Assembly (NCBI GenBank): GCA_029204225.1 | Contig: CM055106.1 | Location: 17,866,149 to 17,930,148, forward strand | Source: Diphasiastrum complanatum | Lineage: Eukaryota; Streptophyta; Lycopodiopsida; Lycopodiales; Lycopodiaceae | Direction of reading: 5' to 3' | DNA length: 64,000 nt | Shown: positions 1,204-57,200 of the stretch, one piece after another | How the letters are laid out: each line of letters begins with the position of its first letter | How positions within the stretch are numbered: position 1 is the stretch's first letter | Program-made: the position numbers and the translations under genes | The notes under the pieces: model-generated | Told to the model about the DNA's origin: nothing | The model's database searches: none | What the model saw: only the letters and a program-made list of their open reading frames with translations

Positions 1204-1312
1204 GTCCGGGCCAAAGTGCCTGCGTCCGACGGCCGAACCCGGGCGCGGGGTCGGACGCGTCCTTTTTTTTTAAAGGCTGGACGCGTCCGGGCCCCGGACG
1301 CGTTTTTTTAAA
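1204..1312. repeat. Subterminal GGACGCGTCC word cluster, 5' end of copy A
   Basis: The palindrome GGACGCGTCC occurs at 1,253-1,262 and 1,279-1,288, GGACGCGT at 1,296-1,303, and related GTCCGGGC, CGTCCGACGG and CCGGGCCCCGG runs lie between. The stretch is far richer in GC and CpG than its surroundings and is followed by A/T homopolymers. Related words recur at 3,490-3,530. Confidence 0.75.
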
Positions 1313-1373
1313 AAAAAAAAAAAAGCAAAAACCATCAGGCCCTGCGGACAGTCCGCAGAACCCGAGAGCAGGC

Positions 1374-1380
<7 letters not shown>

Positions 1381-1472
<92 letters not shown>

Positions 1473-1560
1473 GTTTGTGTGTGTGTGTGAGAAAATTGTG
1501 TGTGTGTGAAAATTGTGTGTTGATTTGTGTGCATTCAGTTGTGTGTGTGTGGTGATCTGT
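1381..1560. repeat. (GA)n microsatellite followed by GT-rich run
   Basis: Forty-four GA units occupy 1,381-1,469, followed by TGTG-rich sequence to about 1,560 and shorter GA/GT runs to about 1,760. Telobox-like TTTAGGG units sit at about 1,683-1,698, just before the transposase start codon. GA/CT leaders and teloboxes are common in plant 5' untranslated regions, so this is probably the element's leader. Confidence 0.85.
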
Positions 1561-1766
1561 GTGTGAGAGAGAGAGAGAGGAAGAGACAAAGAGTGTGAGG
1601 AACGTAGAGAGAGAGGATTTGTGTGTGTGCACAATGTGTGTGTGTGAGTTTAGGATTTAGGTTCAAGGGTGCTTGGGTTTGGGGTTTAGGGTTTAGGGTG
1701 GGAGAGAGCTTGGATTTCCGTGCTTCTGTGTGTGCGTGAGAGAGAGAGAGAGAGAGGGAGAGAGAG

Positions 1767-2624
1767 ATGGCTGCTCGTCCCATTTGGGATGAGGTGGAGG
1801 TCATGCCTGACAAAAAGTGGTGTTGCCCTTTTTGTCGAAAGCAATTCATAGGGAACGCCTCTCGGGTTCGAGCACATCTGGGGGGGTTGCGAGTCTGAAC
1901 CACGGGGGGACGCTACGGGATCGGCATTTGTATGGTCATCCCCGCTTCGGAGAGGGCTCGCATTATGGAAACATATTCTGAGACAGCTGCTGAGCCCGGC
2001 GAGCCGTCCACAGATGCCGTGGACTCTATTTCTACTGGTGCACCCACTGCCACCGACCCTGCCACTGGTACACCCAGCGCCACCGCCCCCACCGTCGCAT
2101 CTGCACCCGCCACCGCCTCCGCCTCCACCAGTACTCCCCATGGATCCACGACTTCCACTGTTGCACCTATGCCTCTGCCATCACCGTCAGATCTGCACGG
2201 CCCGTCCACATCCTCCGCTTCCGCACCTGCACCTATGCCACCACCTCCACATCCGCATCGTCCATCCGCATCCTCCCAGCCATCCACATCCCGAGGCACC
2301 AGACAGATGTCCATGCCGGGATCTTTCAGAGAGGGGCAGCATAGAGAGGCCACCAGGACCATAGCACAGATGTTCTATGACCTGAACCTCCCCTTCATCA
2401 TGGCATCATCCCGCATCTTTCGAGAGGCTGTCTCGAAAGTTGTTGTCTGCGGGCCTGGCTACACACCACCCACAGCCGACGCACTACGAGGCCCTTTGCT
2501 CCAAGACCAGGTTGCATCAGTCAGAGAGAGACTGGCCGCACTGCACGAGGCTTGGGATAGATACGGCTGTTCCATCATGGCTAATGGGTGGACTGATCGT
2601 CGCAGACGTCCACTCACATTTTAG
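1767..2624 (+). pseudogene. hAT-type transposase, N-terminal half (BED finger), frameshifted and truncated
   Basis: ATG at 1,767 opens MAARPIWDEVEVMPDKKWCC, followed by the zinc-finger pair CPFC and a RVRAHL helix: a BED-type DNA-binding finger. A frameshift in the G-run at 1,880-1,886 ends that frame. The continuation is readable in another frame from about 1,911 (GICMVIPASERARIMETY, then a Pro/Ser/Thr/Ala-rich linker). Residues near the end read FYDLNLPFIMASS, YGPGY-like CGPGYTPPTADALR, and YGCSIMANGWTDRRRRP, which is the entry to the DUF659/RNase H-like domain in plant hAT proteins. The frame stops there. The catalytic and hAT-C parts are missing, so this is a dead gene. Confidence 0.75.
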
Positions 2625-2765
2625 CATCATGTACAGTGGCATCAGATGAGATGTATTTATTTTTTTACAATCTATTTGTGTCATGGCTAATTTATCGTGG
2701 TTGCTTACAAATGGTTAGCTTTGTAAAGTTTGAATGGTTAGTCAACAATGGTTTGCTCCGTGCAA

Positions 2766-2862
<97 letters not shown>

Positions 2863-3415
2863 AACACATCTGCATCTCATTTAAAACATATGCATCATGT
2901 TCAACCATTTAACATAAGACCCTAAACCCGACACCCCAACAAATGGCATAGTTAACACAACACCCCAAACCCTAACAAATCACCCTAAACCCACAACCCC
3001 ACAGCCATAACCATCAAAACAAGCCACAAGCATAGTATAGCTTGTCACTCTTCTGGTGAGCGTTCACCTTTCCCCAATCCTCTGGCGAGCATTCACTTCT
3101 AAACCTTGGGGCAGTAATATGTTTGCCATACAAACCTTCACTCGAAACCACTCTCAGAATTTTCTTTGCGGCTTTTTTGGAGCTTAGTTCCCAATGAAGG
3201 TTCGTAATAATTTATGAACTGCTCACTGGCCATGGTTGTTTAGTAATACTGAGGTTATGAGAGGCATGGCCCAGTGGTTAGGTCTGTTGCGAATATTTTT
3301 GGAAATTTTTTTGGTACTGTTTTCCTATTTTTTAACAGGAGGGGGTAGGTGGGTGACAGGCACCCTCTGATAATTAATTCCGGGGGAAAAACAGGGGCCA
3401 TGAATTGTTTTTATT
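2612..3415 (+). repeat. Left arm of long inverted repeat (3' noncoding region of hAT copy A)
   Basis: Starting at the segment containing TTTAGCATCATG, this arm matches the reverse complement of 3,715-5,210 in order. It contains the same GA array (2,767-2,861), ACCCTAAACC/CCCTAAC telobox-like run, the CTCTGGCGAGCATTCAC region, and the stretch ending in a run of GGGGGAAAAACAGGGGCC. The right arm holds an additional ~0.7 kb (about 4,120-4,810) that this arm lacks. Confidence 0.85.
2767..2861. repeat. (GA)n microsatellite inside left arm
   Basis: This GA run directly follows GTGCAAGAT. The equivalent (CT)n array sits at 4,984-5,053 in the right arm next to ATCTTGCAC, which shows that the microsatellite pre-dates the duplication of the arm. 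Confidence 0.9.
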
Positions 3416-3489
3416 TTGCTTTTGGGATGGGGGGCAGTGTAGGCAGGTGCCTGTATTTTTTTTTTGGAAAAAAAAAAATCTGAAAAACA

Positions 3490-3530
3490 TTGGACGTGTC
3501 CAGACGCGCGTCCGTGTCCGCCATCCGCTT
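3490..3530. repeat. Subterminal GGACG-type word cluster, 3' end of copy A
   Basis: GGACGTGTCC (3,492-3,501), GACGCGCGTC (3,503-3,512) and GTCCGTGTCCGCC follow in close succession. The word type is the same as at the opposite end of copy A (1,204-1,312). Confidence 0.65.
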
Positions 3531-3535
3531 CCTTA

Positions 3536-3536
3536 G

Positions 3537-3569
<33 letters not shown>

Positions 3570-3663
3570 TTCTGGAATTTTTTTTAAAAATTCCAGAAAC
3601 GTGTTTCAGAACCGCGTTTTCAAACGCGATTCTGAAACGCGTTTCAGAAACGCGGTGCATCTA

Positions 3664-3712
<49 letters not shown>
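3536..3712. repeat. Two TA arrays enclosing a GAAACGCG palindrome cluster
   Basis: TA runs lie at about 3,536-3,562 and 3,666-3,712. Between them is a perfect hairpin with 15-bp arms (3,568-3,582 and 3,586-3,600, arm GTTTCTGGAATTTTT). A series of GAAACG-type words follows: CGCGTTTTCAAACGCG and CTGAAACGCGTTTCAG (3,632-3,647). This may be the 3' terminus of copy B or a separate small insertion. It uses a different word from copy A (GAAACG, not GGACG). Confidence 0.75.
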
Positions 3713-3714
<2 letters not shown>

Positions 3715-3718
<4 letters not shown>

Positions 3719-4981
3719 CAATTTATGGCCCCTGTTTTTCCCCCGAAATTAATTATCGGAGGGTGTCTGGCACCCACTTGCCCCCTCCTGTTAAAAAATA
3801 GGAAAACGGTACCCAAAAAAGTTTGCAAAAATTTTTGCAACGGACCTAACCACTGGGCCATGCGTCTCATAACTGAGATATTACTAAACAACCATGGCTA
3901 ATGAGCAGTTCATAAATTATTACGAACCTTCATTGGGAACTAGGCTCCAAAAAAGCGGCAAAGAAAGATCTGAGAGTGGTTTCGAGTGAAGATGACAGTT
4001 TGTATGGCAAACATATTACTGGTTTAGGGTTTCGGGTGCATCAGTGACTGTCTCAAAGAAGTGAGTGCTCGCCAAAGGATTGGGGAGAGGTCCATGCTCA
4101 CCAGATCCAGTGACAAGCTCTCAGGACCAGAAGTCTCTGGGGGAAATTAGGGCTCACCAGAAGAGTGACAAGTTATACACTACTCTGACTCGGTTGATGA
4201 GATCGGTTTCTTCCCGGATGAACTTCAACAGGTTGCTTATTAGTTATGGCACTACTTCAACACGCTACAATACGATGTCAAAATTTTGCGTACCAGCACG
4301 GGGGCTCCGAAACATCTCCCAGTTTTCAGGTCCCGAGCGGACAAAGTGTCCCCGTAGCCCTGTTTTGACCCTAAATTTCGGAAGGACGTACTGGGCCTGC
4401 CGTCCGTCCGTTCCTCGTCTCGTCTGCTCCCACAAGTTCCTATCGAGGTTGTCTGCTGGCCGAAACGGACGACACGTGAAACGGATCCCGTTTGGAGAAA
4501 CAGGACAGTCGAACGGATAGCTGCAAAACTAGTCCATTTCAGCTGACCTAATTGTGTTTCCAATCGTCGAACGAGCATTTTGACTGGACGATGCCCGAAT
4601 TAGGCCAGGCTTGGTCCCTTGGGTACGTACCGGCTTCACGAACCAGTGGACTGTATTCCTAGACCATTAATACATTCTACGCAGGTTCAAGTGTATGCTG
4701 CACAAGTGCAGCTTTGATGTTGAATCTGCACATACCTGTGGTGCAATGCCTACGACACAATGAGGACGTGGGTGGGGTTGATGATGTTTATGGATGTGGT
4801 TATGATGATTATGCTTGTGGCTTGTTTTGATGGTTATGGCTGTGGGGTTGTGGGTTTAGGATGATTTGTTAGGGTTTAGGGTGTTATGTTAACTGTGCCA
4901 TTTGTTGGGGTGTCGGGTTTACCATGTTATGTTAAATGGTTGAACATGATGCATATGTTATGAATGAGATGCAGATGTGCT

Positions 4982-5057
<76 letters not shown>

Positions 5058-5210
5058 CTTGCACGGTGCAAACCATTTCTGACTAACCATTAAAATTTCA
5101 CAGAGCTAACCATTTGTAAGCAACCACGATAAATTAGCCATGACACAAATATATTGTAAAAAAATATCCACATCTCATCTGATGCCACTTTACATGATGC
5201 TAAAGTGTGT
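3715..5210 (-). repeat. Right arm of long inverted repeat
   Basis: The reverse complement of this arm matches 2,612-3,415, including the (CT)n array (4,984-5,053) and TTTAGGGTTT-like runs. About 0.7 kb (4,120-4,810) is present only here. It includes a partial internal repeat (CTCACCAGA(A/T) with AGTGACAAG at 4,098-4,117 and 4,154-4,173). The extra block may be ancestral sequence deleted from the left arm or a later insertion. Confidence 0.85.
4984..5053. repeat. (CT)n microsatellite inside right arm
   Basis: This is the reverse-complement counterpart of the GA run at 2,767-2,861. It is flanked by the same ATCTTGCAC sequence and by the same GATGCAGATGTG side. Confidence 0.9.
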
Positions 5211-5367
5211 ATCGGTATCTACAAGTCCGTGCTAAAAAAATCATCCCTCTGCGTGCCAGATGCATCTGCAGGGGTGTCAAATACAAAGTCTGGTTGGGAG
5301 TCTGGAGGCATCTGGGACTCCTCTTAAGTCTAGGCCAATGCGTGCCAAGAGACAACTAGAAAACTCA

Positions 5368-7249
5368 TCAGTGCATCCCCTCTTGGCTGGCCTGCCTCTG
5401 GGTCTGCCAGAAGGAACCCTCTATGGTACACTCCTGCCTGGGGGTCTCCCTCTGCCACGGGGGGGTCTCTGAGAAGAACTGCCTGCCTGTGATGCTCCGA
5501 GTCGTCTCTGCGCTATCTGTCTCCCTCGCAAACTCTGACCAGCCATCATCTGAAAGGGGGCGTGATGCGGGGGTACTGGGTGGGGCACGTGGACCATCCC
5601 CTGCTAGGTCGACCGTCTCGTCTGAATCATATGTGGGCTCATCATCAGAGGAGGGCAATGGAACGTCAGCAGGGAGGGTGGTGGTATCATCGGCATAGGC
5701 ATCATCGTCGGGCTCACCCCACAGAGCACGCCGAGCGGCATCGTCTGGATCAACCTCTGGCTCTGGCTCATGATCTGCCGTTGCAACCAGGCACATATCG
5801 GGATTGACTTGCACAAGTCAATCATTCGTGAGAATAGCCGAAGCAACTGTGAGGGCATTAAACTGAATGTCTCAAACCAATGCGAAAGCAAAACGACAGA
5901 GCAACGAAATATACCTGCAGGAGTAGGGCGCGTGCGCATCCTACCCCCATGCTCTCCGTGATGCGTCGAACCACTCTAGCGTTGGTGTTGCAGTACACCA
6001 GGTCATTGCACCGCTCCGTCGTCAGACGGTTCCGCCTGTTCGTGTGAACAAGGCTGAACACTAACCAGTTCCGCTCGTACACGCAAGCAGAACATCCTGC
6101 ATTAATTGGCAATAAATCGAGTGAGTATCGACCTTGTAGAGAAAATGCGAAAACTGGTTGGATGAATGAGATCAGACAACATACCTGTGAAAGGACTCGG
6201 AGCGCGAGCGTCCTCAGGTCTGGCTGCCCGGCGCCGTAGCTCTCCCACCATGATACAGGCAAGAGCCTGCTCTCTCGGACACGTGCAAGGTCCTCGCTGA
6301 ACAGCCCCAGAGAGTGCCTGCAGGTGATCAGCGATGTGCGTGAGTACACTTGAGCCCGCGCAGGGAAATTGAACGAGCGACAACGTACGATAGATCAAGA
6401 GTTTACCTGTAACCGAGCCTCTGCACCTCGAGCTTGTTGCGGAACCCAGTGTCGCTGCTGAGGAGGCGGATGTATGCGAACCAGTCTGCACGCAGCTCTG
6501 CATCGTCGTACTGCCTCTCGCTCTGAAATAGCGGATGCAGTATGTGGGCCACACTCCGAATGGGCCGATGGAACTTATCCCATCGCCGCTGCCACAAGCG
6601 CCTGATAGGCTCCAACTTGTGGACCAAACCACGTGGAGGCAACAGTTACATACCATCGTGTTGCGGCAGCAAGACGAAACAGAGTGCGAAATGGAAGTAA
6701 GGATGGTGAGACGGAAAAAAGTTATACCTGGTAGGGTCCAGCTCAGAACGCTGGAGAGACTCGCCTATGCGGTCCATGAACTCGTAAATGAGGCCCATCG
6801 TGCACCCCTCGCGATCAACGAGCCTCAAAACAAAGTAGATGGGGCGCATGACGTCCATCAACTACTACATATCCACCCAGAAAGGCTCCATGAAGAGGAT
6901 CTCGTGGAAGACCAAGACCTTTGGGGTCGTGGACAAGTCCATGGCGGTGAACTCTGCCGAAGTGGCCATGCCCGCAATTCACCCTTGAGCTTGTGTAGCC
7001 GCTCAAGCATGATGAACTGGTAGGCGAAGCGGGTGCGAGCGGGCTTCTTCAAGTTGAGCCTGCATTGACAAACGGAATGAGAGGCACACATGAAATGAGC
7101 AAAAAAAAAGGAGCATCTTGAACGAGTCAAAAAATAAGTGGCAGCTTACTTGCTGAATGTGCGGAAAAGGGCCGTCATGCGGCGCTTGCGTGTGACGAAG
7201 TCCACAACCGCAAGTGCCCTCTTGAGAATGTCACTGCCCTCTAGAATCT
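5368..7249 (-). pseudogene. hAT-type transposase, middle and C-terminal exons (hAT-C dimerisation region)
   Basis: In - strand order, a probable exon starts after a CCTACAG acceptor near 7,249 and reads DILKRALAVVDFVTRKRRM, ending at a GTAAGC donor at 7,150. Further exon blocks follow: ARTRFAYQFIMLERLHKLKG (about 7,059 down), PIYFVLRLVDREGCTMGLIYEFMDRIG (about 6,840), LWQRRWDKFHRP (about 6,600), PVSWWESYGAG (about 6,250), and VYERNWLVFSLVHTNRRNRL followed by LVYCNTNARVVRR (about 6,080-5,980), the classic hAT-C dimerisation signature. The last exon (from about 5,811) is an acidic Asp/Pro/Thr-rich tail ending at 5,368. Plausible GT...AG borders separate the blocks. With no N-terminus, BED or DUF659 start, it cannot make a full transposase. 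Confidence 0.7.
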
Positions 7250-7250
7250 G

Positions 7251-7954
7251 TAGGACAAATTCTGACAGCAAGTACATATGCTTAGACTTCTGACATTACA
7301 ACACAACAGAACACAGATAGAAGATATTATCAATGCTGATGTAAGCTGAATGTAATCTCAAGCTGTGTTGAAGCTATGGGAAAATGGTCTCATTTCTCTG
7401 ATGCAAGCAATTAGTCTTCAAAGCAGTCAACGAACTAACAATAACACCTTATGTCCTATTAATACTATTTGACAGCCGCCCCTTGTTTAGGGCTCGGTCT
7501 GCCCAGTACCAATAGGGGCTGAATTATGATAACCAATTCACCCTGGAGAAGTTATTTGCAATCAACTCACATAAACTAACAGGTCCACCTAGGAACCTGC
7601 CAACTTGTTATTGGCGCCCATACAGAGGCTTATGTTGAATCCTATATTAAAAATATTTTAAGTATACCAATGAGTGAATCTTTTCATGGTAATGTTTAAG
7701 ATATAAATGATGAAGCCTTAATGGCTTAAGACTTTGTTGGTGGACGCCATAAGAATTAAATATTTGCATGTTTTGTTTATATGCTCGGGTATACTAGTTT
7801 AGCGACTTCAGCTTCTTGTAAGTTGACCTGTTACTGGATTTGCTGCCAATCAACTGTTTGTGATTTGTGACTTTCTCTGATCTGGGTATTTCTATATTGA
7901 GATGGACCTTTTACATGGCTAACATCTAGTTATGGTATCTGTGAAAGACATCAG
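7251..7954. other. Gap between hAT copy B and PPR exons, no gene seen
   Basis: I find no coding block on either strand. The stretch is ordinary AT-rich noncoding DNA, probably intron of the PPR gene plus transposon flank. Confidence 0.4.
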
Positions 7955-8441
7955 AGGCAGTGACGGTGTATGAGCACATCAAGAATGCTGGCCTGACACC
8001 AGACTCTAGAACATTCATGCTTCTAGTTGATGCACACCTTGTAAATCACGATATAAAGTCTGCTGTGGATCTACTTAACATTATGGTAAGATTTTTTTCT
8101 TCTACAAGGTATTTACTATTATAATTTGCTCATAGATGAGCGTGCTTGTTACACTAGCGTGTGCGAGTTTAAATTGTCACCCAGTGGCATGAGTTCTAAC
8201 ACCGTTCATCTTCAGATTACTAGATGGTTTGTGAAAGTATCTGGTTTTGCTGTAGGTGGGTGCTGGACAGGTACCTTCACAGCAGAGCACTTTAAAAGTT
8301 TGGAAGCGTTGCTTTCAGGAAGGTGACAAGATTGGAGGAATGAAGATTAAGGAGTTGCATAAGAAACTTGGATACCCTGTCAGTTATGGGGGTGAAAACA
8401 GGGTGCAGCTTTTGTTTGACCTTCTAAAAGTGAAAACTTAG
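7955..8441 (+). CDS. PPR (pentatricopeptide repeat) protein, last two exons
   Basis: Exon 7,955-8,085 follows an ACATCAG acceptor and ends ATG|GTAAGA. It encodes 43 residues including a PPR helix pair: VTVYEHIKNAGLTPDSRTF then MLLVDAHLVNHDIKSAVDLL. The next exon, 8,256-8,441, starts after a TGCTGTAG acceptor in the same phase and encodes VGAGQVPSQQS through ENRVQLLFDLLKVKT and a TAG stop. The tail has a KIKELHKKLGYPV segment rather than a DYW or E domain. PPR proteins bind organellar RNA and act in plastids or mitochondria. I do not recognise which member this is. No upstream exons are visible on + in 1-7,954. They lie outside the window or are lost, and the hAT complex may sit in the upstream intron. 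Confidence 0.6.
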
Positions 8442-10427: not shown

Positions 10428-10579
10428 GTGTTTTCATGTTCTCAACAATATGCTTTTGTTAGGTTTGGAATGACTGGATCCTCCATACAAGTATCCCATA
10501 GAAGGCTTGTTACTAGAACTCAAGAGACATCCTTTGCTATCTCATCTCCTGGTTTTAATTTTACAAAGTTGATGGCATC

Positions 10580-11268
10580 CAGTGTTTCCTCAAAACGCGT
10601 GAAACAGGATGTACGAAACGACCCTGTTTTGAAACTCCGTTTCAGTGTTCGAAACGACTGAAAAAAAAAACCAATTTTTTTTTTTCCTGAAACCGTGCCA
10701 TAAGCTTTGTAGTATGTACTGGCAATGGGCATGAACAGATTCTCGCAACCTAGTAACCTATCCATGATAGTATCAATAATTGACTGAGGAAAGTGACCAT
10801 AGTCACCATACACAGCTTCTCTTGAAATTGCATTCTAATTTCTCTAGAGCATTCTCATGAAATTGGATGTATCTACTTGTTACTAGACTGTCTATGACAT
10901 TTGTAAACTCCAGAAACCGTGCCATAAGCTTTGTAGTATGTATTGGCAATGGGCATGAACAGATTCTCGCAACCTAATAACCTATCCATGACAGTATCAA
11001 TAATTGATTGAGGAAAGTCACCATAGTCACCATACACAACTTCTCCTCTTGAAATTGCATTCTCTAGAGCATTTTCATGAAATTGGATGTATCTACTTGT
11101 TACTAGACTTTCTATGACATATGTAAATCCCAAAAACCCTCAAAAACACATTTTCAAAAAAAAAAAAAAGCCCTAAAAAAATTTCTTGTTTTGAACCTGA
11201 ACCAGACGTTTTATACGCGTTTCAAACGCGTTTTGAAACGATGTACGAAACGCGCCCATGAAACATTG
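10580..11268. mobile_element. Non-autonomous hAT element with perfect 8-bp target duplication
   Basis: The direct repeat ATGGCATC flanks the block at 10,572-10,579 and 11,269-11,276. The ends are inverted: CAGTGTTTC at the left and, on the opposite strand, CAATGTTTC at the right. Eight-bp duplications and C-A-x-x-G termini are diagnostic of hAT elements. Both subterminal regions carry clusters of GAAACG words (10,592-10,655; 11,208-11,265) next to A/T homopolymers. The 689-bp interior holds no transposase. It carries a gene-like fragment in two tandem copies, as in Pack-type elements that carry host DNA. Confidence 0.85.
10690..11130 (-). repeat. Tandem duplication of a gene-like fragment inside the hAT element
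   Basis: Two direct copies of about 220 bp (10,690-10,905 and 10,915-11,130) differ by scattered substitutions and a small indel. On the - strand the second copy reads TSRYIQFHENALENAISRGE, then VVYGDYGDFPQSIIDTVMDR and LLGCENLFMPIANTYYKAYG. The first copy shares the central part, but a frameshift breaks its start. The composition is protein-like and it could be an exon of a captured host gene. I cannot assign a family. Confidence 0.6.
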
Positions 11269-11582
11269 ATGGCATCTAGAATATGTGGTCCTAAAATTGC
11301 TAAGGTTGCCTTTAGAGTGGTAAAATATCTCTGATAGAAGGTTTTGGAAACAACCACCCCCCAAATTTGTCTCTTGTATATAAAGTGTCTCAGATGTGGG
11401 GATACAAGGAAATATTCCACATTATGCAATAATATTCTCTATTCTTCGGCTCTAAGCAGAACATTCTAATTTACGTGTTGTCAAGCGACTCTTAACGAAT
11501 CATAGTAGGGAAATAATCAGAAAGTGAACATGTCTCTCATCAATAAAATTATCCTCACTTATAGGTCACAATAGAGTGTAAG

Positions 11583-14500
11583 ATCCATAGTTGCAGCGAA
11601 TGATGATTCGCTGGCAATCTTGATTCAGCGGATCGTGATTCGTTGCATAGAATCATTGACAGTAAAAAAAAGTTGCCCCTGTTAATAGCTCGTGACAACC
11701 CATTTCACGCACCTAGGGAAAGAGAAAAAAGTGTATAGAAGAGCAAATGATGGCGGATCATCGCGTGTGAGCATTTGGCGTCCATCTATTCGTTGCTTTG
11801 GAGGTAGTGCTCATTGGCTTTATGGGATCAAGGTTGTGTATCGAGCGAAATCGAAAAACATAGATTTTTGGTAAGTGTAGGCTTCATTTTTTCAATGTGT
11901 TTAGATTGAGGTATAGGCAACGAAATCGCTTGGTTTTTGGTTGTAAACCACCTTTCCCTATGTGCACAGTAATTCCTATCACGTCAGTTTCAGTCGTTAT
12001 GGCACGCCTAGCAACTCTAGAACGACGAACCTAATTCCATGTGTTTTTTGGCCGGTTTCATGAACTAGCCTAGAGGCATCCGATTGAGGTGATGTTTTGG
12101 CCTACATTGTGTTTCTACATGCCTACAAAGACTCCTATGAAGTCATAGAAGCTTCAGAATCCTAAATCGAAAATCCCATGTGTGTTGTGCCCTCATTATG
12201 ATCTGGTTTTGAGGCATTTGATTTTCTACACAATGATTTTTCATGCTTGTTAGAATGGTTGTGATGTTCACTATAATGAGTAGTAGGTTGTCGGATGTTT
12301 TTAATTTGATTTCAACTGTTAAACTCAAAATTTTAGAATTTTCTTTGGATGTTTTTTTCTCACAATTGTTTTTGCCAATTCAATGCAGAATAATGCATAT
12401 GCAGATGTTTAGGGTTTTGGGCATTGCGTTGAACATCTGCTCATTTGTTTCTTTTGTAGGATTGATTTCCTGCTGATACCATGTCGGTCGCTGGTAGGGG
12501 CATTGGGGCGCAGGTTGAGCTCACAGAGGGGGATGTGGCTACATTCAGAGGCTCGAGTACCCACAGATGGAGATGCCTATACTGTGACGAGATCTTCACT
12601 GGATCACTTACCAAGCTCAGAGCTCACTTGCTATGACTTAGAGGGCCAGATGGGCGGACATTGAGCTTATCTGCCTGCCCCCTGATTTTTTATGAGGATG
12701 TGCAGAGGCTCATGGACATGTACGAGCCTGATGGTACCTCCAGCTAGCTAGTCAAACTAGCAGATACCTTTGTTCGAGGGTCAGTATTAGTGGCAGGGCC
12801 TAGCACATCAATTGCAGGTGCAAGCACAGGTGTAGGAGCAGGCACATCACGGGCGGAGGTTGGTTCAAGGCCAGTACACTATTCAGGATTAGCTCCTCTA
12901 GTTCTAGCCACAACAACAGGGCCTAGTTCAGTAGCAAGCCCTTACCATTCCACATTGTCGTCAACAGCAAATGCACCATGTGCCACAACAGATTCTGCCA
13001 GAGGAGGGTGGGGGAGATCCTCCATGATTGGACACACCCATAGATTGCCCAACATCTACCATATCCACACTCGTTGCTAGACGACGAGCACCTCATGTGC
13101 AGCAGAGGGCAGTTAGAACTAGGTTACAACAAACACTGGAGCGTTTTGGGTGGCAGAGAGAGCTGCATGCCCAGTGTACTAGATAGGTCAGTCGGTTCTT
13201 CTATGAATGTGGCATTCCCTTTGCCATTGCTGACACATGGGCTTTCACAGAGTTTATGAAGTTGGTTGCATCAGTGGATGCTAGTTGGAGACCACCAATG
13301 AGGGAGACATTGACAAGGAGAGAGCATGCTCCGCCAGGAGGAGCAGACCATCATGCGAGAGCAGCTCTGGTCGCACAGGTTGGGAGAGAGATGTCTTGCA
13401 TCCTTAAACTTTTTGCATACCCTTCTTTTTGCAAGTGTTTTTTTTTCTTTTTGCATATGGCTATTTTGTGGTAGGTATGGATGCTCAATATTGAGTGATG
13501 GATGGATCGACATTTGTCGGCGATCCATCATCAATCTTTTGGTCTCTTGCTCGCTCCGCACAATTTTCATGCGTGGCATGCACAGTCGACTTCATAATGG
13601 AGGTTGTGAGGGATGTGATTTATGACATTGGAGTGGAGCACGTGGTTCAAGTTGTCACAGACAATGCCACAAATTGTAGGCAGATAGAAGAGATTCTGAC
13701 GAGAGAGCAAACCAACATTGTGTGGACACTATGTGTTGCACATTTTGTAGACTTCATCCACTACCTCTACGATCTTGCATGTATACGCCAGGTATAATTT
13801 TTTTTCACTTGCTTTGCCATCTGTCTATGCTTCACATGCTCCTAGCTCCTAACCCCTCTTGGCGTTTCCCTAAAATTTCGGTTGTCGATTTGTGTTGCAG
13901 ATCATGTTTCAAGCCATGCGCGTGGTCATCTTTGTTACCAAGAAGAAGCGCATGCTGGCCTTGTTCTGCACCTTCTCGCCGTTGCACTTGAGGAAGACAT
14001 CACCCATCCACTTTGCCTACTAATTTTTGGTCTTGGAGCGACTGTTGGCAATGAAAGACCATTTGCGGAGGATGGTTGCCAGTGACGAGTTCCAGCCCTT
14101 CAGAGGTATTAGTATAGATGCGTTGCATTTCTAGATCATCGTGTATGGTGAGAATTTTTGGAGCCAGGCAACATACTTTGTGGGGGTCTTACAACCCATT
14201 TTCTATGTGTTGTGGCTTATAGACCGTGAGGGGTGCACTCTTGGTCTGATATACGAGTTCATGGACGACCGCATCGGCGAGGCGATCCAAAGATGTGACT
14301 TGGACGATGACAAGTATGGCTCCAATATCTTGTAATTTATTTGATTCAAATTGGTTGCATTTCGAAGTTTCTTTTGTGCTGTGACACACTAACAACTGAT
14401 GATTGTAATTTATGTCACAAGCCTGGATGTAATCATGCAAATTTGGGAGAGCAGATGGGACTACTTCCACTGACCCATCCATGTCGTACTATGGTCTAGG

Positions 14501-20116: not shown

Positions 20117-20121
20117 CAAAG

Positions 20122-31263: not shown

Positions 31264-31967
31264 GGCTCTGATACCATGTGAAAAGTACAGTACTAAGGAC
31301 CATAAATGGATCTTTGAATGATCCACAAGGTAATTGTATGCTTGTTAAACAATCTATCAGAAACTAGTCATTAGAAAACAAGATCTAGTTTAGCAGCTTG
31401 ATAGGAAACAAGTAGAGACAATCAAAACATTGATCAATTAGTGTAATCCAACTCCACACGTGTGGAAATAAGGTTGTAGTACGACCTATAGATAGTGTTT
31501 CCAAAGTGCCAAAGCTGGGTTTCATTGGAAATCAAGAGTAATCACCATACAATGAGAGGAAACTCGAGTTTCTCCTTGAGGCTCCAAAAAGTTTCTATCT
31601 TCTCACTATGGAGAATGGGAATACATAGTAAAACACACTTCCTTTGCTAAGTTAGGTGAAAATCCAGCATGTAATAAGGAATTAGACTCCACTTTCTTGC
31701 CCTAATGTGAAAACCCTAGCCTAGATCCAAGAGTCATGCTTGGTAGGTGCATGGTAGGTACAAATCTCATCATAAATCATGGTCTAGATCCTACAAAGTA
31801 GGAATCACTACCAAATGGACACAACCACTCCTCTTGACTCATGGTAACCTACTTTAGGTGTGTATGTACAAGTGGCACTTTGGCCATTCAAGTAACCAAC
31901 AAACAATATTGACAAAATGTACAATATTCTACATGGCTATATTTGCCAATGTAGGCAATTTTTCACA
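31264..31967 (-). mobile_element. Copia 5' LTR (LTR-A, 691 bp) with primer-binding site, minus orientation
   Basis: LTR-A spans 31,277-31,967 and starts, on -, TGTGAAAAATTGCC. The opposite end reads CTTTTCACA next to TGGTATCAGAGCC (complement of 31,264-31,276), the tRNA-Met site. It is the same length as LTR-B (33,052-33,742) and nearly identical, but inverted. It contains TCCACACGTGTGGA (31,453-31,466). The outer flank on its own strand is TGGCC. Confidence 0.9.
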
Positions 31968-33051: not shown

Positions 33052-33742
33052 TGTGAAAAATTGCCTACATTGGCAAATCTAGCCATGTAGAATATTGTAC
33101 ATTTTGTCAATATTGTATGTTGGTTACTTGAATGGCCAAAGTGCCACTTGTACATACACACCTAAAGTAGGTTACCACGAGTCAAGAGGAGTGGTTGTGT
33201 CCATTTGGTAGTGATTCCTACTTTGTAGGATCTAGACCATGATTTACGATGAGATTTGTACCTACCATGCACCTACCAAGCATGACTCTTGGATCTAGGC
33301 TAGGGTTTTCACATTAGGGCAAGAAAGTGGAGTCTACTTCCTTATTACATGCTGGATTTTCACCTAACTTAGCAAAGGAAGTGTGTTTTACTATGTATTC
33401 CCATTCTCCATAGTGAGAAGATAGAAACTTTTTGGAGCCTCAAGGAGAAACTCAAGTTTCCTCTCATTGTATGGTGATTACTCTTGATTTCCAATGAAAC
33501 CCGGCTTTGGCACTTTGGAAACACTGTCTAGAGGTCGTAATACAGCCTTATTTCCACACATGTGGAGTTGGGTTACACTAAATGATCAATGCTTTGATTG
33601 TCTCTACTTGTTTCCTATCAAGCTGCTAAACTAGATCTTGTTTTCTGATGACTAGTTTCTGATAGATTGTTTAACAGGCATACAATCACCTTGTGGATCA
33701 TTCAAAGATCCATTTATGGTCCTTAGTACTGTACTTTTCACA
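33052..33742 (+). mobile_element. Copia 3' LTR (LTR-B, 691 bp), plus orientation
   Basis: It starts TGTGAAAAATTGCC after a GAGGAGGAG tract and ends TACTTTTCACA. It is followed by TGGCC rather than a primer-binding site, so it is a 3' LTR. It is the same length as LTR-A and inverted relative to it. The palindrome position reads TCCACACATGTGGA (33,553-33,566). Confidence 0.9.
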
Positions 33743-34300
33743 TGGCCTTCTATTTTTGATATTATTCTTCACCGACCTGACAGTAAGTACATCTGAATCA
33801 CACCTATGCACAATGCAACGGGCGAAGGTTCTTTTTCTGTATTTTCAAGTTTTTTAGTGATTTTTTGGTGTTTTCTTATGGTTTTTTTTTATGTTTCTGC
33901 CAATTTGCTGAGAATTAATTGTCGCCCTTAAATTTGAAGGATTTGTGAGTGAAACTGAAGCTTCCTACAACTCGATGAAGTTTCATGTAAGAAAAGATAA
34001 AAAGTTATCAGATCTGATGACGATTTTGTCTCCTTTTTACTCAAATCTGGTAGAAATGACCGATTGTTGTTGTTTTTCTTGGTTTCTCAGATCCAAATGG
34101 ATCTTAAGAATTGTGATTAGAATAGTTATCCTTGTTTAATAATCAGATTAGATTTCAAAAAAGAAGATCCACTCAAATCAAGCAAAAATCACTCTAAATC
34201 TAATCCTAAAATGTAATTTTAACCCTATTCATGCCAAAACAAGATGTCTAATGCAAGCTAACCATCTACCAACATGCTGCAATCTGAAAAATTGGTGTAG
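33743..34300. other. Retroelement flank/leader, no gene
   Basis: It contains CTTCACCGACCTGACAG (33,768-33,784) and GGCGAAGGTTCTTTT (33,821-33,835), both shared with 37,690-37,820. The rest, next to the Gypsy primer site, is probably leader of that element. Confidence 0.4.
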
Positions 34301-34923: not shown

Positions 34924-34924
34924 T

Positions 34925-43462: not shown

Positions 43463-43469
43463 GGGGGAA

Positions 43470-43648: not shown

Positions 43649-43649
43649 A

Positions 43650-43870
43650 GCAAGACCAAACCCTTTGCGACCTTTACTCATAAACCAACAAGGTAAAACA
43701 TAGCTGAAAAGCATATAGTACTCAAAAAGCAACATAAAGCAAAACCTATTTCAAGACATCCAGCTAGTACCTGCCACCATCCCACCACACAAAATTGCGC
43801 AAATTAGCATAGTGAGGAAGATAGGTGTCAACGCTGAATGTCAGTTGTTATCCATGTACAAAATAAGTAT
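43650..43870 (+). repeat. Dispersed repeat, also present at 62,325-62,545
   Basis: Both copies share, in the same orientation, CATAGCTGAAAAG(C/T)ATA, AAGCAAAACCTATTTCAAGA and CCACCATCCCACCACACAAA, then GAATGTCAGTTGTTATCCAT. The element type is unknown. Confidence 0.75.
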
Positions 43871-44233
43871 AGCAACTTAACAGCTTACAGTATTTGATAA
43901 AATAATATAGTCCAAGCATCCCTACTTAAAGTGATTAATAGAGATAGGCCGCACCATATCCTTACCGTATCAGGGAATTTCGCAATTCTTATGGTCCATA
44001 TTCTATGAAATTAAAGCATACATACTTGAAAACTAGTTGTGCTAAATAGATTGCAACGTGCAGACAGGTGATAATGTGGATTAGTACTCAAGTATGGGGG
44101 CGAATCCATGCCATACCGATACCTGAACCTATCGTATAAAATATAGGTAATGCACTGTTTTCATAACCCTTGGGATTCTTTGAAATAAATATATGAATCA
44201 AGCACACTTCTAGAGTCCTCATGCTTAGACCAC

Positions 44234-46957: not shown

Positions 46958-46999
46958 ATCTCATCATTTGCGTAATTTGAATAATCTAAAGTGAAAATT

Positions 47000-47400
47000 C
47001 AATCAAATTGATGTGAGACCCACCATATTAAATGCCAAAGTTCCTTTTTATCAAAAAATACCTTAAGACTCTCTTAGTAATGTGCCAATGTCTTACAATA
47101 GGACTTTACATGAATTGACAAAGTTTACTAATGCAAAAAGCTTCGATCATATCTAGTAATGGTTAACCACATGGGACTTCCAATTAGCTTTCTATAAATG
47201 ATGCTTCATTATCTCTTATGGCTAGCTTACAATCTGTCTCCCATGGAGTTGCAATTGACTTACAAGTATTTGTATTGAACTTTTTAAGGATAGAGTTACA
47301 ATATATTTTTTGACAAATAAACGTTATATCTTAGCCCCTATAGACCTCTATCCCTAGCACATAATGCAATAAACCAAAATCTTTCATTTCAAATTCTTGA
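47000..47400 (-). pseudogene. Very decayed Copia reverse transcriptase/RNase H
   Basis: On -, fragments such as KLCQFMxSPIVRHWHITKRV and LRYF match the Copia signature QFM..P...HW...KR+LRY+. Multiple frames are needed to read it. Confidence 0.4.
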
Positions 47401-49833: not shown

Positions 49834-51174
49834 CTATTGATTGTTCCTGAAAAAGAGCTGCTCTGCTTGATCTGGGAATAAGGTCAAAAAGAGATAGGCA
49901 ACTGCAAGCAAGAAGAACGAAGTTTAATACTTGAGTCGATACGCGTACTATGACAACCCAAGATTATACCATAAAGGTAGGCCAGTTTTCAAGCAAATGG
50001 AATATGATGTACTTGGGATGTACTTACCAACAAGAACGGATCCAAGGATGGCTGAGAACTTGCCCTGTATCGTTACTAGACCAGCCTTGCCAGCATCCTC
50101 CAGTTCTTTTGGTCCCTCCTTCGGAAATGTTCCTAGTAGAAGGAGAAGAGTGTTTCAAGATATGAAATCAAACTTTTTGGCTGTATGGTGTCTAGTGAGT
50201 GGATTTCACCTCCAGAAATTGTGGTGTGGAAGCCATCAACCAGCATGTCAATTATTGTTTGACTTTATTCACTACTATCAATTATGTAGCAGTGCTTACA
50301 GACTCAACAACCTCAAATCATATCACAATTATTGAAGAACAAAATTCTCAGGCAATTTTTCCAAAATCAATGTGGTCATCCCTCATACCTGGTTTAACTG
50401 ACTGCAACCCTGAAGCGATGTAGGCTAGATTCTGAAAGCCTGCTCCTTCCAATTTTTCAGCTGCTATACCAGACCTACAAGCAATACAGGCTGACCCAAA
50501 AATCATGAATTTGCATATCCATTTATATGATTGAATCTCTTGGATTGAAAGCAATAAGGATACCTTTTACTGCAAGCTTAGTGCAACACTAGATCTTGTA
50601 GAATTTGCATATTTGAAACATACTTTGCCAAAATTCAGGACACAGTTAGCAGAGCCTGCAGAATAGATTTGCTGCACATTTTATGGGTGAATTAAGACAC
50701 CAGGTGACTCTGATTAAACTTAACATCAGATTATTGCCCAGCTACTTTAAGAATCCAAACAAGAGGCAATGTGCAACCAGCAAATTTAAGCTACTAATAT
50801 CGCAACTTTCTTTCTGTTGAAACAGATTTATTTGAAGACTTCAGCCATCTACTCATAACTTAGATCACACCTTAGGCCTTCTTGGCAGACAACAAGCAGC
50901 TTATGATCCTTGGAGAATGTTTTTTCCACCTCTGAGATAAACTTAGGGTTTGGCTTGGTAAAGGCAACTCCATAAAAAAGCCCCGAGAAGCCATTGTGCA
51001 GAGCTCTATTTATGGCAGTACCTACAATGAGCAAGACAGATCATCATTCAAATGGCTACACAATTTTAAGTATTGTACAGGCTCAACTTATAAATCGCAG
51101 CAGTAGATGCCTATTAGTGAAGCTGTGTTAAATGAGAGAATAGAACATGTGAAAGCTCAAAGATCTTTCAATTG

Positions 51175-51263
<89 letters not shown>

Positions 51264-54200
51264 ATATACATTTATTGATGTCCACGGAAGCCAATATGGC
51301 TTATGGGACAAAAATTGAGTACAATATCCATGTCTTAAAGTCCAGCAAAGTAATGCAAAATCCACTCCAAGATCATAAATCAATCTTGTTATCCAAAAAG
51401 CTACCGAGCATTACAATATCAACTTGATCAAATAAAATAAGCAATGTCACTATAGGTTCCTCGAAAAGCTTAGGAATGTCTTTCCAAAGACCTTCAAGGC
51501 TGCTGCAGTCCACTAGGTGATGATATTCTGTCTCAATACTCCAGTTCTTGCAAAAAGAGCACGTGCGCTCCTCTGAAGGTGTCCTCGGAGTGTTCCATCT
51601 TCCCGTTTTCGAATGTAATTCATGAGAATTTATCCTTAAGCATGAAATAGCTTGCTTTTTATTCACAGATATATTGGCAATAATGTCGCATTGAGTAAGA
51701 GCTCCTATTATAGGGTTGAAACATTCTTTAAAGTACTCCACTTTCCACATCAAAGGTAGCTTCCATAACCCCTCATTGAACTTAGCGTGTACAAATGATT
51801 TCAGCACCTTTTTCGGAAGGCAAACCATTGTGATGTCTAGCCACCACCCACCTTTGAGGTAGCATGCAACAATGTATAGCCACTTCACATAACATAATAT
51901 CTTCCAATTCTTTTACTCTTTCAATAAGTTGATCATTTTGATAACAGCCAACGCTTCCCAAAGAAGGACATTCGTTTCAACCAACCACCTTATTAAGAAC
52001 GGTCAAGTAAATTATAGCAGTTGGCATCAGAACCACCAATTTCCATGTTCAAGTGTGTTCCCCTGTTTTTATGGCAAATTTTTATCCCTTAGTGTTAGTC
52101 GATGCATTTGGAAAATAATGCTTGAAATTCATTGCTTTTGCTTTTAAAAGTGTAATTAAATCAGTTGCAAAAATTCTAATTTCAGTCATAATTCATAGCG
52201 CTTAAACGTATGTCAAAATGGCTTTGAACGGTCTTTTAATGGCTTACGAAGATCTGTGTTTTTCTGCAGTTCTTTGCTACATTTCCTTATGATAGCAAAC
52301 TGGCAGTAAAAGTTTTGCAGCCTCAAAATATTTTACAATATGTTGTCAACTTTTTGATGTGGCCTTTTCTTGCAAAGACTATTCCGATCTTAAGAAAACA
52401 GGGCCTGAAAATATTGAATTGCTCTAGGTTCTAACTTATAAAGCTTTAGGTGTCTAAAAGTTATAAACACCTAAAGCTTTTTTGTAATGACTAGTGTGAA
52501 AACTTTGAAACTTTAAGTTTTTTAAACTTCAAGTTTTGCAAGAAAACTCCTGAAGGCAATTTTGGAACTTGGCTCACACTGGTAGCCGTAGCAGGGTGGC
52601 GCCAGGGTTGCACCCTCTCTTTTGAAAGAACTAATGTCCTTTTTCCTTTCAAAAGGCCTCTTAAAACTTTTGCTTCAAAGGCGAAAGCAAGTAGAAAAAT
52701 TGATGTATTGGAGCTTCCCCAGGCGCAAGAACATTGGTGCCAGGCTCCGCCCTATCTGTGCCAGCAGACAACAGTAACAAAAAAATAGTTGTAGGAGTGC
52801 GTGGCACTTGCGCCTGTGAAGGTATACTTAATTCCAGCGCCCTGCAAATGCCATACATGTCCTTGAATTTGTTTTCTTTCACCCTCTTCTCTCTCCTACG
52901 TGAGAGTGTTGTGGAAACTTAGTGGTGGAAAAGTGTCAAACTCCTAAGCCACATGATGGAAGTGGGTGGTACCCCCACCACCTCCATGAGTACACCACGT
53001 GGCGACTTTTCAGTTCACCATGTGTTCACCTACTCCAGGTGGCTGTGTCATTATGACACTGACACTATTCCATGAAAGAACTTAGAATATTCCAGGCCTG
53101 ACACGTTGAGGGTGCAGTAAGGGCCTTGGGTCCCCCCCATTTCTCACTTTTCTAAATTCAAGTTTTTGTTTTTGAAGAAGAACTTTATTAAGCTTTTTAG
53201 CTTGGAAGGTTATTTTTGGGCTAGTTTTTGCTCAAAATTCCATCGTTTTACAAGACATGGTGCATGGTATAAATTTGCTTCAACAACATATTATCGATAT
53301 GAATGCCAAAAATGAACAGGCAGAGCAAGAGGTAAAGGCAATAAACCAGTCCAAGCAGGCCCTCCTGCACCCCATGTTTAGTCTAGAGTTTTTCTCAGGG
53401 GACAAAAAGGACAGACATCTAGAACTAGAGTTAGGCTGGTTTGGTGCCTGCTTTGGTGTCTGTAGGGTTTAGTTGAGACCAGCAGGCCCCTAAACAAGAG
53501 ATCAGAGACAAAAAAAAGTTTCAGCTCCTTTTCAAAAAAAAAGGGAAGGAGAAAGTCTTCGACATCGGTTCCCAATTGGCAAAGAAGAAGCACCTGAAGT
53601 TGGATAGGACTGACTTTGACAAGGATCGAGAGAGAAAGATGGAGATTAATCTTTTAAAGCTTCAGGTAATTCTTCTATCACTTGTGTTGACTTGTCCATT
53701 ATGGATGATGCAATTCACAAAAGTAGTTGTTTTAGTACATTAGTTTTTGGACCCCATGATCTCATTCAAATGAATGTTTTCATGAAGGACCAAGCTGTAA
53801 ATGTCCTATTTGACGATGGTTCACTCATAACTTTATTAATGCTAAATTGGTGCAAAAACTCAAATTGGCCACTATGCCAACTGACCATAAGTACTTCCTT
53901 TGAAATAGATATGTCGAATGAGTCGTGGAACGAGTATCAGTGCAAGAGAAAGAAATTATCAGATGTCATGATAGTCTTGGTGTTGGACACCCTAGCATAC
54001 AAAGAAACCTTGACCTGGTTAGAAGAGATTTCTATTGGCCAAAAATGAAAGGTCATGTGGAGGCATACGCCCAAAGGTATGAACAATGCCAAGTGAATAC
54101 AGTGGACAGACTCAAAGTAGCTGGTCTGATGCATTTGTTGGAGATTTCAAATAAGAAATGGGAAAGTATTTCAATGAATGATGTGACCGGTCTCCTTGGA

Positions 54201-57200
54201 CAAGGAAGGGTCACGATGCCATTTGGTAGTTGTTGACACGCTAACTTAGATGGCCCACTTTATTCCAACAAAGTCTATTGTCAAAGCTTCTGAGGTTGCT
54301 CAAGTATTTGTTGAGAAGTTGTTCAAGTTGTTTGGATTGCAAATCATATCATTGGTGATCGTGATTCCAAGGTATATGGCATATAGTGAGGAACGTAACA
54401 CAAATTTTAGACGTCAAAAAATCCACAAAAGACATGAAAGCTGGTCATGGAGGAAGAGGGTGAAGCGGGTGTCACAAGCCACGTCTTTAATGCATACCAA
54501 AAGAGAGAATTGAGCTCAACAGAGGCGATCAAATCTGATGACTTAGCATCCTCACTCAGCATCCGATCACTCAGCAAAAGTAAACACAATACTCAAATAA
54601 ATTGTTGTTAGCTCCATCAAATGAAGTACAGCATTGACACTAGGAGGCTATGTGCAATCCTTAGCCCAGCAACCTGGGTTTGTAGTACATTTAAAACATA
54701 ATTTCTTCTCCCTATCTTATCCATCTCTTCTGAACCTTAATGTAAAAGAGAAGTAGGTTGCAAAGATATCAATTGATAAGACTGTATTATGAAGAATGGG
54801 CATACTAAACTGAAGCTTAGGTTTAAACAAAAGCAGCACCAAACCAGCATACTTTTGAGTCAATGTAAAAGAAATTGACATGGCCTTCTTGATTGTGGTA
54901 GCAAAGGGAATAGTGACCAGGGAACGTGGGAACGTGGCTTTTTAGACATGCCACGTGTTCCTAACGGTGCTTTTGTTGGGAACGTGCTCGGGAACTTGAG
55001 TTTGGAAACGTGACCAGAGAACGCGTTCCCAAGGAATGGGAACGTGATTGGGAACAAGTTCCCTGGTCAGTTTCTGCAAAGACTCAAAACAAGATAAATG
55101 AAGGACGAAGCCTTGGGAACATGTTCCCTGGTCACAGTTTCTGCTAAGACTAAAAGCAAGACAGATGAAAGAGGTTTATATTATGTGTAAATTCAATATA
55201 CAAAATTCTATAAATTTCAAATTTTGATGTATATGTGTGTTTTGATTATATGTTATTATGTTGACGTGGCGTTCTTGTTCCCGTTCCCGTTCCCATTTTT
55301 GCAGGGACGTTTTCATTCCCGTTCCTCATTCTCATTCCTGGTCACCATGAAAGGGATGCAACATTGACCTTCTAGCAACTAAGCCATTCTGCAATACCAC
55401 TGTTTGTTTTTTGTATATATGATGTTTTGCTCATAACTTGGTACCAAAGCACTTTCTTCACACTTAGAGTTACTTTTCTTTGTTTCACTTCTTCTTTTTT
55501 GGGGAGAAAACCGTCACTTTGTTTTTTGGCTCTAGTTTTCTCCATGGTGATCAGGTTCTCATTCCATTTGAAGTGTTAAATTCCTTGTTGTAGGGCGTTC
55601 AAGAATATGTAAGTTGTTTGTCGTTCTACTAATGGCAAATAGGGTGCCAAAATTCAAGTTTCCATTAATTGTCAGTAGTTGTCATTTTTTTATTTGTGAA
55701 GCTATTGTGCAGGTTCTAATTGATCAGAAGACATTCCGACCCATTTTGGTCGGAACGGGCTTCTAAGCTTTAAGAAAGATTCTGCCCACAAAAAAGGCTT
55801 GCAGTCGTTTGGATCCAAGCTGTACCACAGCGATTCTGCTCACAAACCCTCCTGTCAGATAGATCGCGGCCAGCAAGTGTAATGTTTTTTTTTATTACTA
55901 TTTTTTCTTTAAAAACATTAAGACCCAGTACATTCCGGAGCGTACAGTACGTTCCGACCCAAAAGGGTTGGAACGGGTTTCTAAGATATGCTCTATGAAT
56001 CAAACAATTGGGTCCTCGCCCCATAATGTCAAATAAGCCCTCAAAATACTCTAAAAAGCCCTAAACATATTATTGGTCAACACAGGTTCCCCATGTTAGT
56101 TTTCATAGCATGAGCTTCCAGAGGCACACTTCTATGGAACACAAATGAATGAAGATTCTAATTAATCATAGAACGTCTAGATTTAAACTATTTATGGAAA
56201 ATTGATTGATCAACATACAAATGTCATTTGCCTGTGATGCTTTAGGGCATTGATTGGTATATCAAAGAAAGATCTATGATTAGTCAATGGAAAAGGCTCC
56301 CATCAAACAAAGGCTATGTTGTCCAATCGCTTTAGGAAAATGCATCAAGTAGAGAGAACCTTTTGTGATTGAGAAAAGTAACCAATTCTGAAATTGGGTA
56401 AAATATGTTACCAATATCATTGTCATTGTTATCAATGAACAGGGGTACATGGACACTGGATGGGATGTGGGCTCTATCATATTGAGAATTGTCTCGTATG
56501 TCCAATATGGTGTATCCCTCCTCCGTTGCAAGTCTTTTTGCCTCTTGTCCATCTACAAAGTTTACTTTTGCTCTTGCACCTTGGCAACGTTTACTTTTTT
56601 GCAGCAAGTAAACTTTCCTGCATCACAAGCCATTTTGTAGGTTGAGAACTGCCATATGCTATCAAAAATTAACCTAAAATAATCAATCATCCACTCTCCC
56701 TGTGGTTTTTCTCTCACCTTCTCCATGTAGAAAGCTTTTGCTCACCAATCACAGTCTCTAAGCTTCTTTAACAACTTAGGTCCGACTTATGACTTGCGAG
56801 CAACCTCAAATTCTTGTTTTCTACCCAGTCAATTGAAGCATATGCCAACTAGGATATTTTGCTAGTAGTTCAACTATTCAACATAAGTGGTGAAAAACAA
56901 TATTGAAATAGCAAAGAAGTTGAAGATTTCAAGGACCAACAACTCAAAACTTATGAGACTACATCATAAAAAAATATAGGGATGATGGATGGGATAGAGC
57001 TACTAAGGGACAGCTTCAAGTTTTTTGATTCTTGAAAAGGAGAGTTTTAAACTAGCAATAATCATTGTTTTATCATAAGGTTAAAATAAGAAAAAAATAT
57101 TCACCAAGAACTGATTAACAAAGGTAGAAAGTAGCTTTGATTCAAACCCTATCAAAGTGTAAAAGTGTTGAGCTTCAAAATCGACTGGAGCATCTTTAGC

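Follow-up and report, generated by a model that had tools for sequence, protein, structure and literature searches.

We analyzed a 64,000-nucleotide stretch of the genome of the lycophyte Diphasiastrum complanatum (C15:17,866,149-17,930,148, here called the window) and found that its paired blocks of short, CG-containing words are the ends of plant DUF659-type hAT cut-and-paste transposons. Each family of these elements has its own word, which differs from that of other families yet is matched at both ends of the element, and the words change behind a constant tip as well as between closely related coding elements. Such word turnover with matched ends, which had been claimed from the DNA letters alone, is well supported. 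Genome-wide searches covered the 1.7447-Gb assembly, and loci outside the window that were fetched for comparison carry labels such as L003 or L077.

Word clusters and the elements that they delimit

The sequence-only reading had described three blocks with one word clustered at both ends. We counted the words on both strands, within the block limits of that reading (picked after inspection, and some widened by a few bases), and compared the counts with 2000 shuffles of the same stretch per block. GACGCG occurs five times in 1,204-1,312, which 0/2000 shuffles matched, and twice in 3,490-3,536, a count reached by 16/2000. GAAACG is present three times in each of its blocks, 10,592-10,660 (11/2000 shuffles) and 11,208-11,268 (0/2000), and GGAACG five times in 54,920-55,135 (0/2000) and three times in 55,270-55,335 (2/2000). 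An unbiased scan of the window, asking for a CG-containing 6-mer present four or more times within 120 bp, yielded six merged clusters, whereas 100 block shuffles averaged 0.02 and never exceeded 1. Four of the six had already been listed (1,222-1,301; 3,596-3,654; 11,217-11,253; 54,921-55,046), one (2,050-2,115) is a coding repeat inside a transposase open reading frame (ORF), and one (4,407-4,517, AACGGA) had been missed. The scan clusters are not tandem arrays, except for a weak period-13 tandem repeat at 3,594-3,654. The three main paired blocks are real, with the expected words at both ends and above shuffles, and their existence as hAT elements was confirmed.

The GACGCG blocks belong to element A (1193..3536, plus strand), an internally deleted copy with (AT)n on both flanks, the tip AAGACATGAGGGTCC and the other end CTTCCTTAG. 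Sister copies have the exact 8-bp target site duplications (TSDs) TACTATTT (L075 with L033) and GTTCATAT (L077 with L036); the TSD of A itself is indistinguishable because AT repeats flank the element. A TSD was found for two of the three fetched left ends of relatives, the third lying within AT repeats; pairing from the 3' loci alone failed and succeeded once the 5' ends were added. The tips of this family, CAGACATG and CTAAGGAA, are poorly matched to each other, and the end stretch 3410-3536 matches 40 scored genome places, including the window's own. Element A keeps the N-terminal part of its transposase (1767..2624, plus strand), frameshifted and cut by the internal deletion, while the middle is lost. 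This ORF contains a BED-like finger, CPFCRKQFIGNASRVRAH, at 1824 (zf-BED 15.1 bits, below the cut-off of 20.6) and the start of DUF659 (5.9e-10).

The GAAACG blocks delimit a miniature inverted-repeat transposable element (MITE) at 10580..11268 (plus strand), flanked by the exact 8-bp TSD ATGGCATC at 10572-10579 and 11269-11276, with the tips CAGTGTTTC and CAATGTTTC. Such tips together with an exact TSD were found in 14/20 fetched loci, window copy included, corresponding to 11 distinct insertions; L003, L010, L014, and L020 had no TSD, and L007 and L009 gave only spurious pairings. The tip of the Arabidopsis hAT element Tag1, presumably CAATGTTT, is similar to that of this element. Within the MITE, 10685-10918 and 10909-11138 form a 90% tandem duplication, and the double match is repeated in many other copies.

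The GGAACG blocks delimit a second MITE (54910..55349, plus strand) with an imperfect TSD (CAAAGGGA/GAAAGGGA). It matches 40 scored genome places, 22 of which start at query position 11 (= 54,910). Sister copies share the tips CATAGTGACCA, and exact TSDs in 4/8 fetched loci represent two distinct insertions, AATTGTAG (L068, L072, and L073) and TTTTGTAT (L071). A check of the flanks for 8-bp duplications, proposed along with the original observation, therefore gave exact TSDs in 14/20, 4/8, and 2/3 loci for the 10,580, GGAACG, and GACGCG families, respectively.

A further scan of the window and the fetched loci looked for YANNG tips with short terminal inverted repeats (TIRs) that are enclosed by an exact 8-bp duplication. 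It returned 35 pairings, 28 of them with at least 8/11 matching TIR bases, whereas reversed sequences gave 6 regardless of score; the YANNG tips of the elements so defined were a requirement of the scan. A DUF659 profile search of the genome gave 10,620 first-look candidates, and 150/150 of those scored were over the cut-off. Among 16 DUF659 coding loci that were fetched, seven elements could be limited by TSDs (L052, L053, L054, L060, L063, L064, and L066:729-3956) and L065 by AT repeats; the remaining eight lacked at least one recognizable end within the fetched stretch. The loci L027, L045, and L058 showed only their left end. Coding copies with exact TSDs carry CAAACG (L052, L053, L054, L063) or GAACCG (L060), and the L052 protein has a hAT dimerisation domain (7.6e-13) in addition to DUF659. 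Thus, 8-bp TSDs, CA..G tips, and transposases with DUF659 and hAT dimerisation domains all uphold the hAT identity.

Matched ends and the register of the word

We compared the two ends of 11 elements limited by TSDs, by AT repeats (the GTACCG copy L065 and window element A), or by tips (the 54,910 copy), taking the ends of the two window copies as 1,193-3,535 and 54,910-55,351. The CG-containing 6-mers of 200 bp were compared after dropping the first 20 bp of each end, which excludes TIR homology from the comparison. Seven word families have the same word at both ends, namely, GACGCG, GAAACG, CAAACG, GAACCG, GGAACG, GAATCG, and GTACCG. With one element per family, the mean similarity of an element's own ends was 0.49, versus 0.045 across families, and the true pairing was the best of all 5,040; with all 11 elements, it was equalled by 2/100,000 permutations. 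Own ends are therefore far more alike than shuffled pairs, as had been predicted, and the word differs between families while remaining matched.

The position of the word is fixed behind a common tip. The pattern CATAGTTGCANNGNNNCG, i.e., the 10-bp tip CATAGTTGCA followed by two bases and GNNNCG at positions 13-18, occurs at 2,259 genome places (reversed-pattern control, 9). With GNNNCG one base further in, 17 places were found (control, 5), and one base further out, 272 (control, 44). Allowing any base at position 13 gave 2,740 places (control, 119), so that position 13 is G in 82%. In a sample consisting of the first 100 places, all on contig C1, the words behind CATAGTTGCA were GAATCG (73), GAAACG (16), GAACCG (6), GACCCG (3), and GAGTCG (2), and position 14 was A in 100/100 although the pattern had left it free. 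Other tips also have a word in register, as in CATAGTGACCAG[GGAACG], CATGGTTGCATT[CAAACG], CAGTGTTTCCTC[GAAACG], and CATAGAATCAAT[GAACCG]. Overall, 13 of 22 tabulated ends have the forward word at position 13 with at most one mismatch, and in 7 of these the match is exact.

Several families have the word at 13-18 and, directly behind it at 19-24, the reverse complement of that word. Genome counts of this arrangement behind the tip were 736 for GAATCG and 172 for GAAACG, with 0 in both controls. The palindromic pair next to the TIR was seen for CATAGTTGCA and some other tips and is lacking in the GACGCG family. We had expected a clean rule by which each word is followed by its own partner, and this was not borne out: of the 1,224 GAATCG or GAAACG ends that have one of the two partners, 316 combine with the one belonging to the other word. 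In the C1 sample, 17 of 20 mixed ends fall in a subfamily with a CA spacer, and in the GC-spacer subfamily the partner is matched in 23/23 GAATCG ends having an exact partner. We read the mixed GAATCG/GAAACG ends as those of a hybrid subfamily.

Transposase fingers and explanations of word turnover

The coding copies of five word families carry DUF659/hAT transposases with a BED-like finger that varies from word to word. The finger cores are CRYCEHHYQGGPQRIVSH (with two one-residue variants) and CKFCDHVFQGGLQRVVSH for CAAACG, CRFCHARFVSTLTRLKGH (one variant) for GAACCG, CRYCLVEFAASLTRLKGH (L065) and CRYCLVEFTASLTRLKGH (L027) for GTACCG, CRYCLTEFVATLTRLKGH (L058 and L045) for a GATCCG/GTACCG mix, CPFCQSDYSITLTRVRAH (L066, gene broken) for GAATCG, and that of window element A (gene broken) for GACGCG. 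In 12 aligned fingers the spacing is C-x2-C-x13-H, and Cys, Cys, Arg, and His are invariant, all four having been required by the search. When grouped by word, as had been proposed with the original observation, the fingers differ, but they comprise only five lineages. The L052 and L064 proteins, both of the CAAACG family, are 64% identical, which shows the word kept as the proteins diverge. Conversely, the L058 and L065 proteins are 87.6% identical, and GTACCG and GATCCG are swapped at homologous end sites. Seven residues before the His, the GTACCG fingers (L065, L027) have Ser, whereas those of the GATCCG mix, GAACCG, and GAATCG have Thr; by this numbering the residue would correspond to a base-contacting position in Hermes. 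As an additional observation, the CAAACG finger is present three times in L054 (1761, 1928, and 2097, about 168 bp apart), which represents a finger duplication.

We consider it likely that the window contains hAT ends with family-specific words, that the finger reads the word, and that both change jointly. In each family, one short word, mostly GNNNCG, is repeated within the ends, with the first copy at 13-18 from the tip behind CATAGTTGCA and at the 13 of 22 ends mentioned above, often followed by its reverse complement at 19-24. We propose that the N-terminal BED-like finger of the transposase would bind the word of its family, and two fingers may occupy the palindrome adjoining the TIR, as in the housefly element Hermes, whose BED fingers bind a quasi-palindrome at left end (LE) positions 11-27 cooperatively, with residues just before the zinc His reading the bases (PMC10368747). 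If a finger binds its own word, the family would therefore move only ends with that word, and finger and word would change jointly when families split. Finger-word binding and a joint, stepwise change of protein and ends are what we infer; the end anatomy, with its word pair at 13-24 and matched words at both ends, fits a Hermes-type arrangement.

Several results weigh against this explanation. Concerning the ends, L064 has few CAAACG words at one end, the 3' end of L066:729-3956 has few words, and L061 has GAACCG at one site but GGCGCC at a second. Matched ends are also not universal among hATs, since Ac and Tol2, according to the Herves study, have different motifs on their left and right sides (PMC3143072). 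Concerning the register, 9/22 ends lack the forward word at 13 even with one mismatch: four have the word reversed at 12, 14, or 17; in L065, the word GTACCG lies reversed at 12 and forward at 15; one GACGCG end has its word at 19 and the other nowhere in the first 24; and the 3' end at L066:3956 has no word in the register table. Besides the 316 mixed ends of the genome-wide count, 89 ends of the C1 sample divide into 35 with the matched partner, 20 with that of the other word, and 34 with neither exactly, and the two-by-two association of word and partner in 55 ends is not significant (p 0.067, copies non-independent). Concerning the protein, the fingers represent only five lineages (11 core strings). 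Pfam zf-BED matches 7/12 fingers at E up to 1, the best at 0.024, below the cut-off, and zf-WIZ matches 4/12, the best at 0.00059, beating zf-BED in some. A comparison of the finger profile with structures gave zinc fingers of other kinds (best E, 0.022), Hermes being absent from the 48 listed, and neither single transposase sequences nor the finger profile found a hAT structure in PDB. By its sequence, the finger is best described as BED-like only.

An alternative that we regard as rather doubtful supposes no recent turnover and the coexistence in the genome of several old hAT lineages with ancient words. It agrees with the divergence of the transposases of different words, which are mostly 29-51% identical over aligned parts; however, a single 10-bp tip is followed by five words, the 88%-identical pair L058 and L065 has different words at homologous sites, and one subfamily has hybrid GAATCG/GAAACG ends. 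A clearly less probable alternative is that host proteins read the words, or that these are CG methylation sites controlling the transposon, with the transposase reading mainly the tip and the words drifting with the family, not with the finger. All seven words contain CG (7/7, in scans that sought CG words), transposase-word binding is a prediction here, and a title cited in PMC3260210 concerns maize nuclear proteins that bind Ac subterminal regions. Against it, the exact register at the TIR and the pairing of the word with its reverse complement suit a transpososome protein, and the Hermes and Herves transposases themselves bind such words. That the clusters are functionless GC-rich simple-sequence or hairpin expansions, as the palindrome-prone nature of most blocks and the weak tandem repeat at 3,594-3,654 might suggest, is scarcely credible and was rejected, since TSDs, matched ends, a fixed register, non-tandem spacing, and high copy number all speak against it and the register test contradicts it.

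The genome might tentatively be viewed as a natural experiment on the recognition code of BED fingers, a reading to which we give a minor chance. The G and CG contacts would be fixed, through the Arg four residues ahead of the zinc His (shared by every finger, in a search that demanded Arg), the middle bases would be set by neighboring residues, and mixed ends (GAATCG then CGTTTC; GTACCG/GATCCG) would be movable intermediates of a word change.

Other clusters and features of the window

The sequence-only reading had named four further candidates, and as a list of members it stood only in part: the 3,600 and 11,597 clusters proved to be single hAT ends, and those at 55,734 and 59,264 could not be placed as elements. 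We therefore rejected the idea that all listed clusters are two-ended elements. The first is an end with GAAACG words on the minus strand (3564..3665), tipped by CATAGATGCACC at 3,665 between two AT repeats; its cluster at 3,596-3,660 contains four GAAACG (0/2000 shuffles). The second (11586..11660, plus strand) is an end of the GAATCG/GATTCG family with the tip CATAGTTGCAGCGAAT, a perfect CATAGTTGCA head at 11,586. GATTCG at 11,597-11,660 is weak by itself (two copies, 51/2000 shuffles), and no partner end was found in the window; the family is demonstrated by L071:314-1188, with the TSD AGATAGAG. At 55731..55985 lie two copies of a GGAACG palindrome, direct and not inverted, common to L066:1004-1039 and L010 (three GGAACG in 55,734-55,990, 0/2000 shuffles). 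The stretch 59264..59820 is rich in GAAGGG (eight copies, 0/2000 shuffles) and has no known tip, no convincing TSD pair, and no match among the fetched loci. TSD/TIR scans of 11,400-12,600, 55,600-56,200, and 59,100-60,000 gave no convincing pair.

Tail to tail with A lies copy B (3712..7260, minus strand, upper limit judged by eye), the remnant of a second, related hAT whose N-terminal part is missing. It is 89% identical to A 2615-3034 and 83% to A 3039-3414, and its ORF at 5861-6394 has a hAT dimerisation domain (8.1e-05; 22.8 bits versus a cut-off of 21.4). A stretch of B without counterpart in A (4179-4809) holds the AAACGG/AACGGA cluster at 4401..4517, with three copies of AAACGG, the Ac word (0/2000 shuffles); this stretch gave no element ends. 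Downstream of B, a coding-looking stretch at 7930-8440 resembles, by eye, the end of a SAP-type host gene.

The flanks of the GACGCG right ends in L021-L050 were also inspected. Excluding four duplicates and L047, there are 25 distinct flanks (those of L029 and L030 being nearly alike), 10 of which begin with an AT repeat and 15 of which have a further cluster of CG words no more than 200 bp away, often at an additional hAT tip. In these flanks, hAT ends accumulate at AT microsatellites or next to one another. The window as a whole resembles plant DNA, its ORFs including copia-type and hAT ones, and an inverted pair of 694-bp repeats, 97.4% identical (31274-31967 and 33052-33745), lies beside copia-type ORFs.

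Comparison with known hAT systems

How a transposase and its ends can shift specificity and still stay compatible has usually been approached through distant elements taken singly. The present genome combines at least seven coexisting word families with a constant tip, a fixed register, more than 2,000 ends, and apparent intermediates, so that the question becomes testable by sequence analysis and binding assays. The word families of this genome would also form a training set for DNA recognition by BED fingers, for which, to our knowledge, no code yet exists.

Family-specific hAT end words are known already. The newness claimed for word turnover was overstated because two studies precede it: one states that the sequences bound by hAT transposases within their own elements vary from one hAT to another (PMC3143072), and the other reports that hAT-derived BED proteins bind divergent motifs, those of four hAT proteins matching their own subterminal regions (PMC8097297). 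What we did not find described is the parallel radiation of word families in one genome, the GNNNCG form, the strict register behind a constant tip, the exchange of words between near relatives, and the apparent intermediate. Among the best 1 to 20 open-access titles and abstract openings of up to 1,772 hits, none was seen to describe a plant genome in which several word families share a fixed register.

The CGG-binding proteins of the latter study resemble the present case in that related BED proteins of one genome have distinct motifs, usually with CGG or CGC; they differ in being animal or fungal, mostly domesticated host genes with motifs measured on microarrays, and the excerpted text describes no end anatomy or register (PMC8097297). 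Ac/Ds of maize, a plant hAT like ours, has several short subterminal words (AAACGG), often kept in nonautonomous copies (PMC3260210). By contrast, the three main elements of the window use words other than AAACGG, for which the cluster at 4,401-4,517 is the only one in the window that was seen to be rich. Tag1 of Arabidopsis is likewise a plant hAT, but its words, AAACCC and TGACCC, differ between the two ends, according to the Herves study (PMC3143072). Herves itself, a mosquito hAT, is described there as having one repeated word, CG/AATTCAT, conserved at both ends and bound by the transposase; CGATTC is close to the GATTCG word found here, although Herves offers one element with one word and no series within a genome (PMC3143072). 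The closest likeness in anatomy is to Hermes, which has short subterminal words concentrated toward the tips at both ends, a quasi-palindrome (LE-STR1/STR2) just inside the TIR, and a CCHC finger with the recognition helix right before the His (PMC10368747). Its word is AAGT, whereas here it is mostly GNNNCG and varies between families, and its second Cys and His are separated by 16 residues instead of 13 (PMC10368747).

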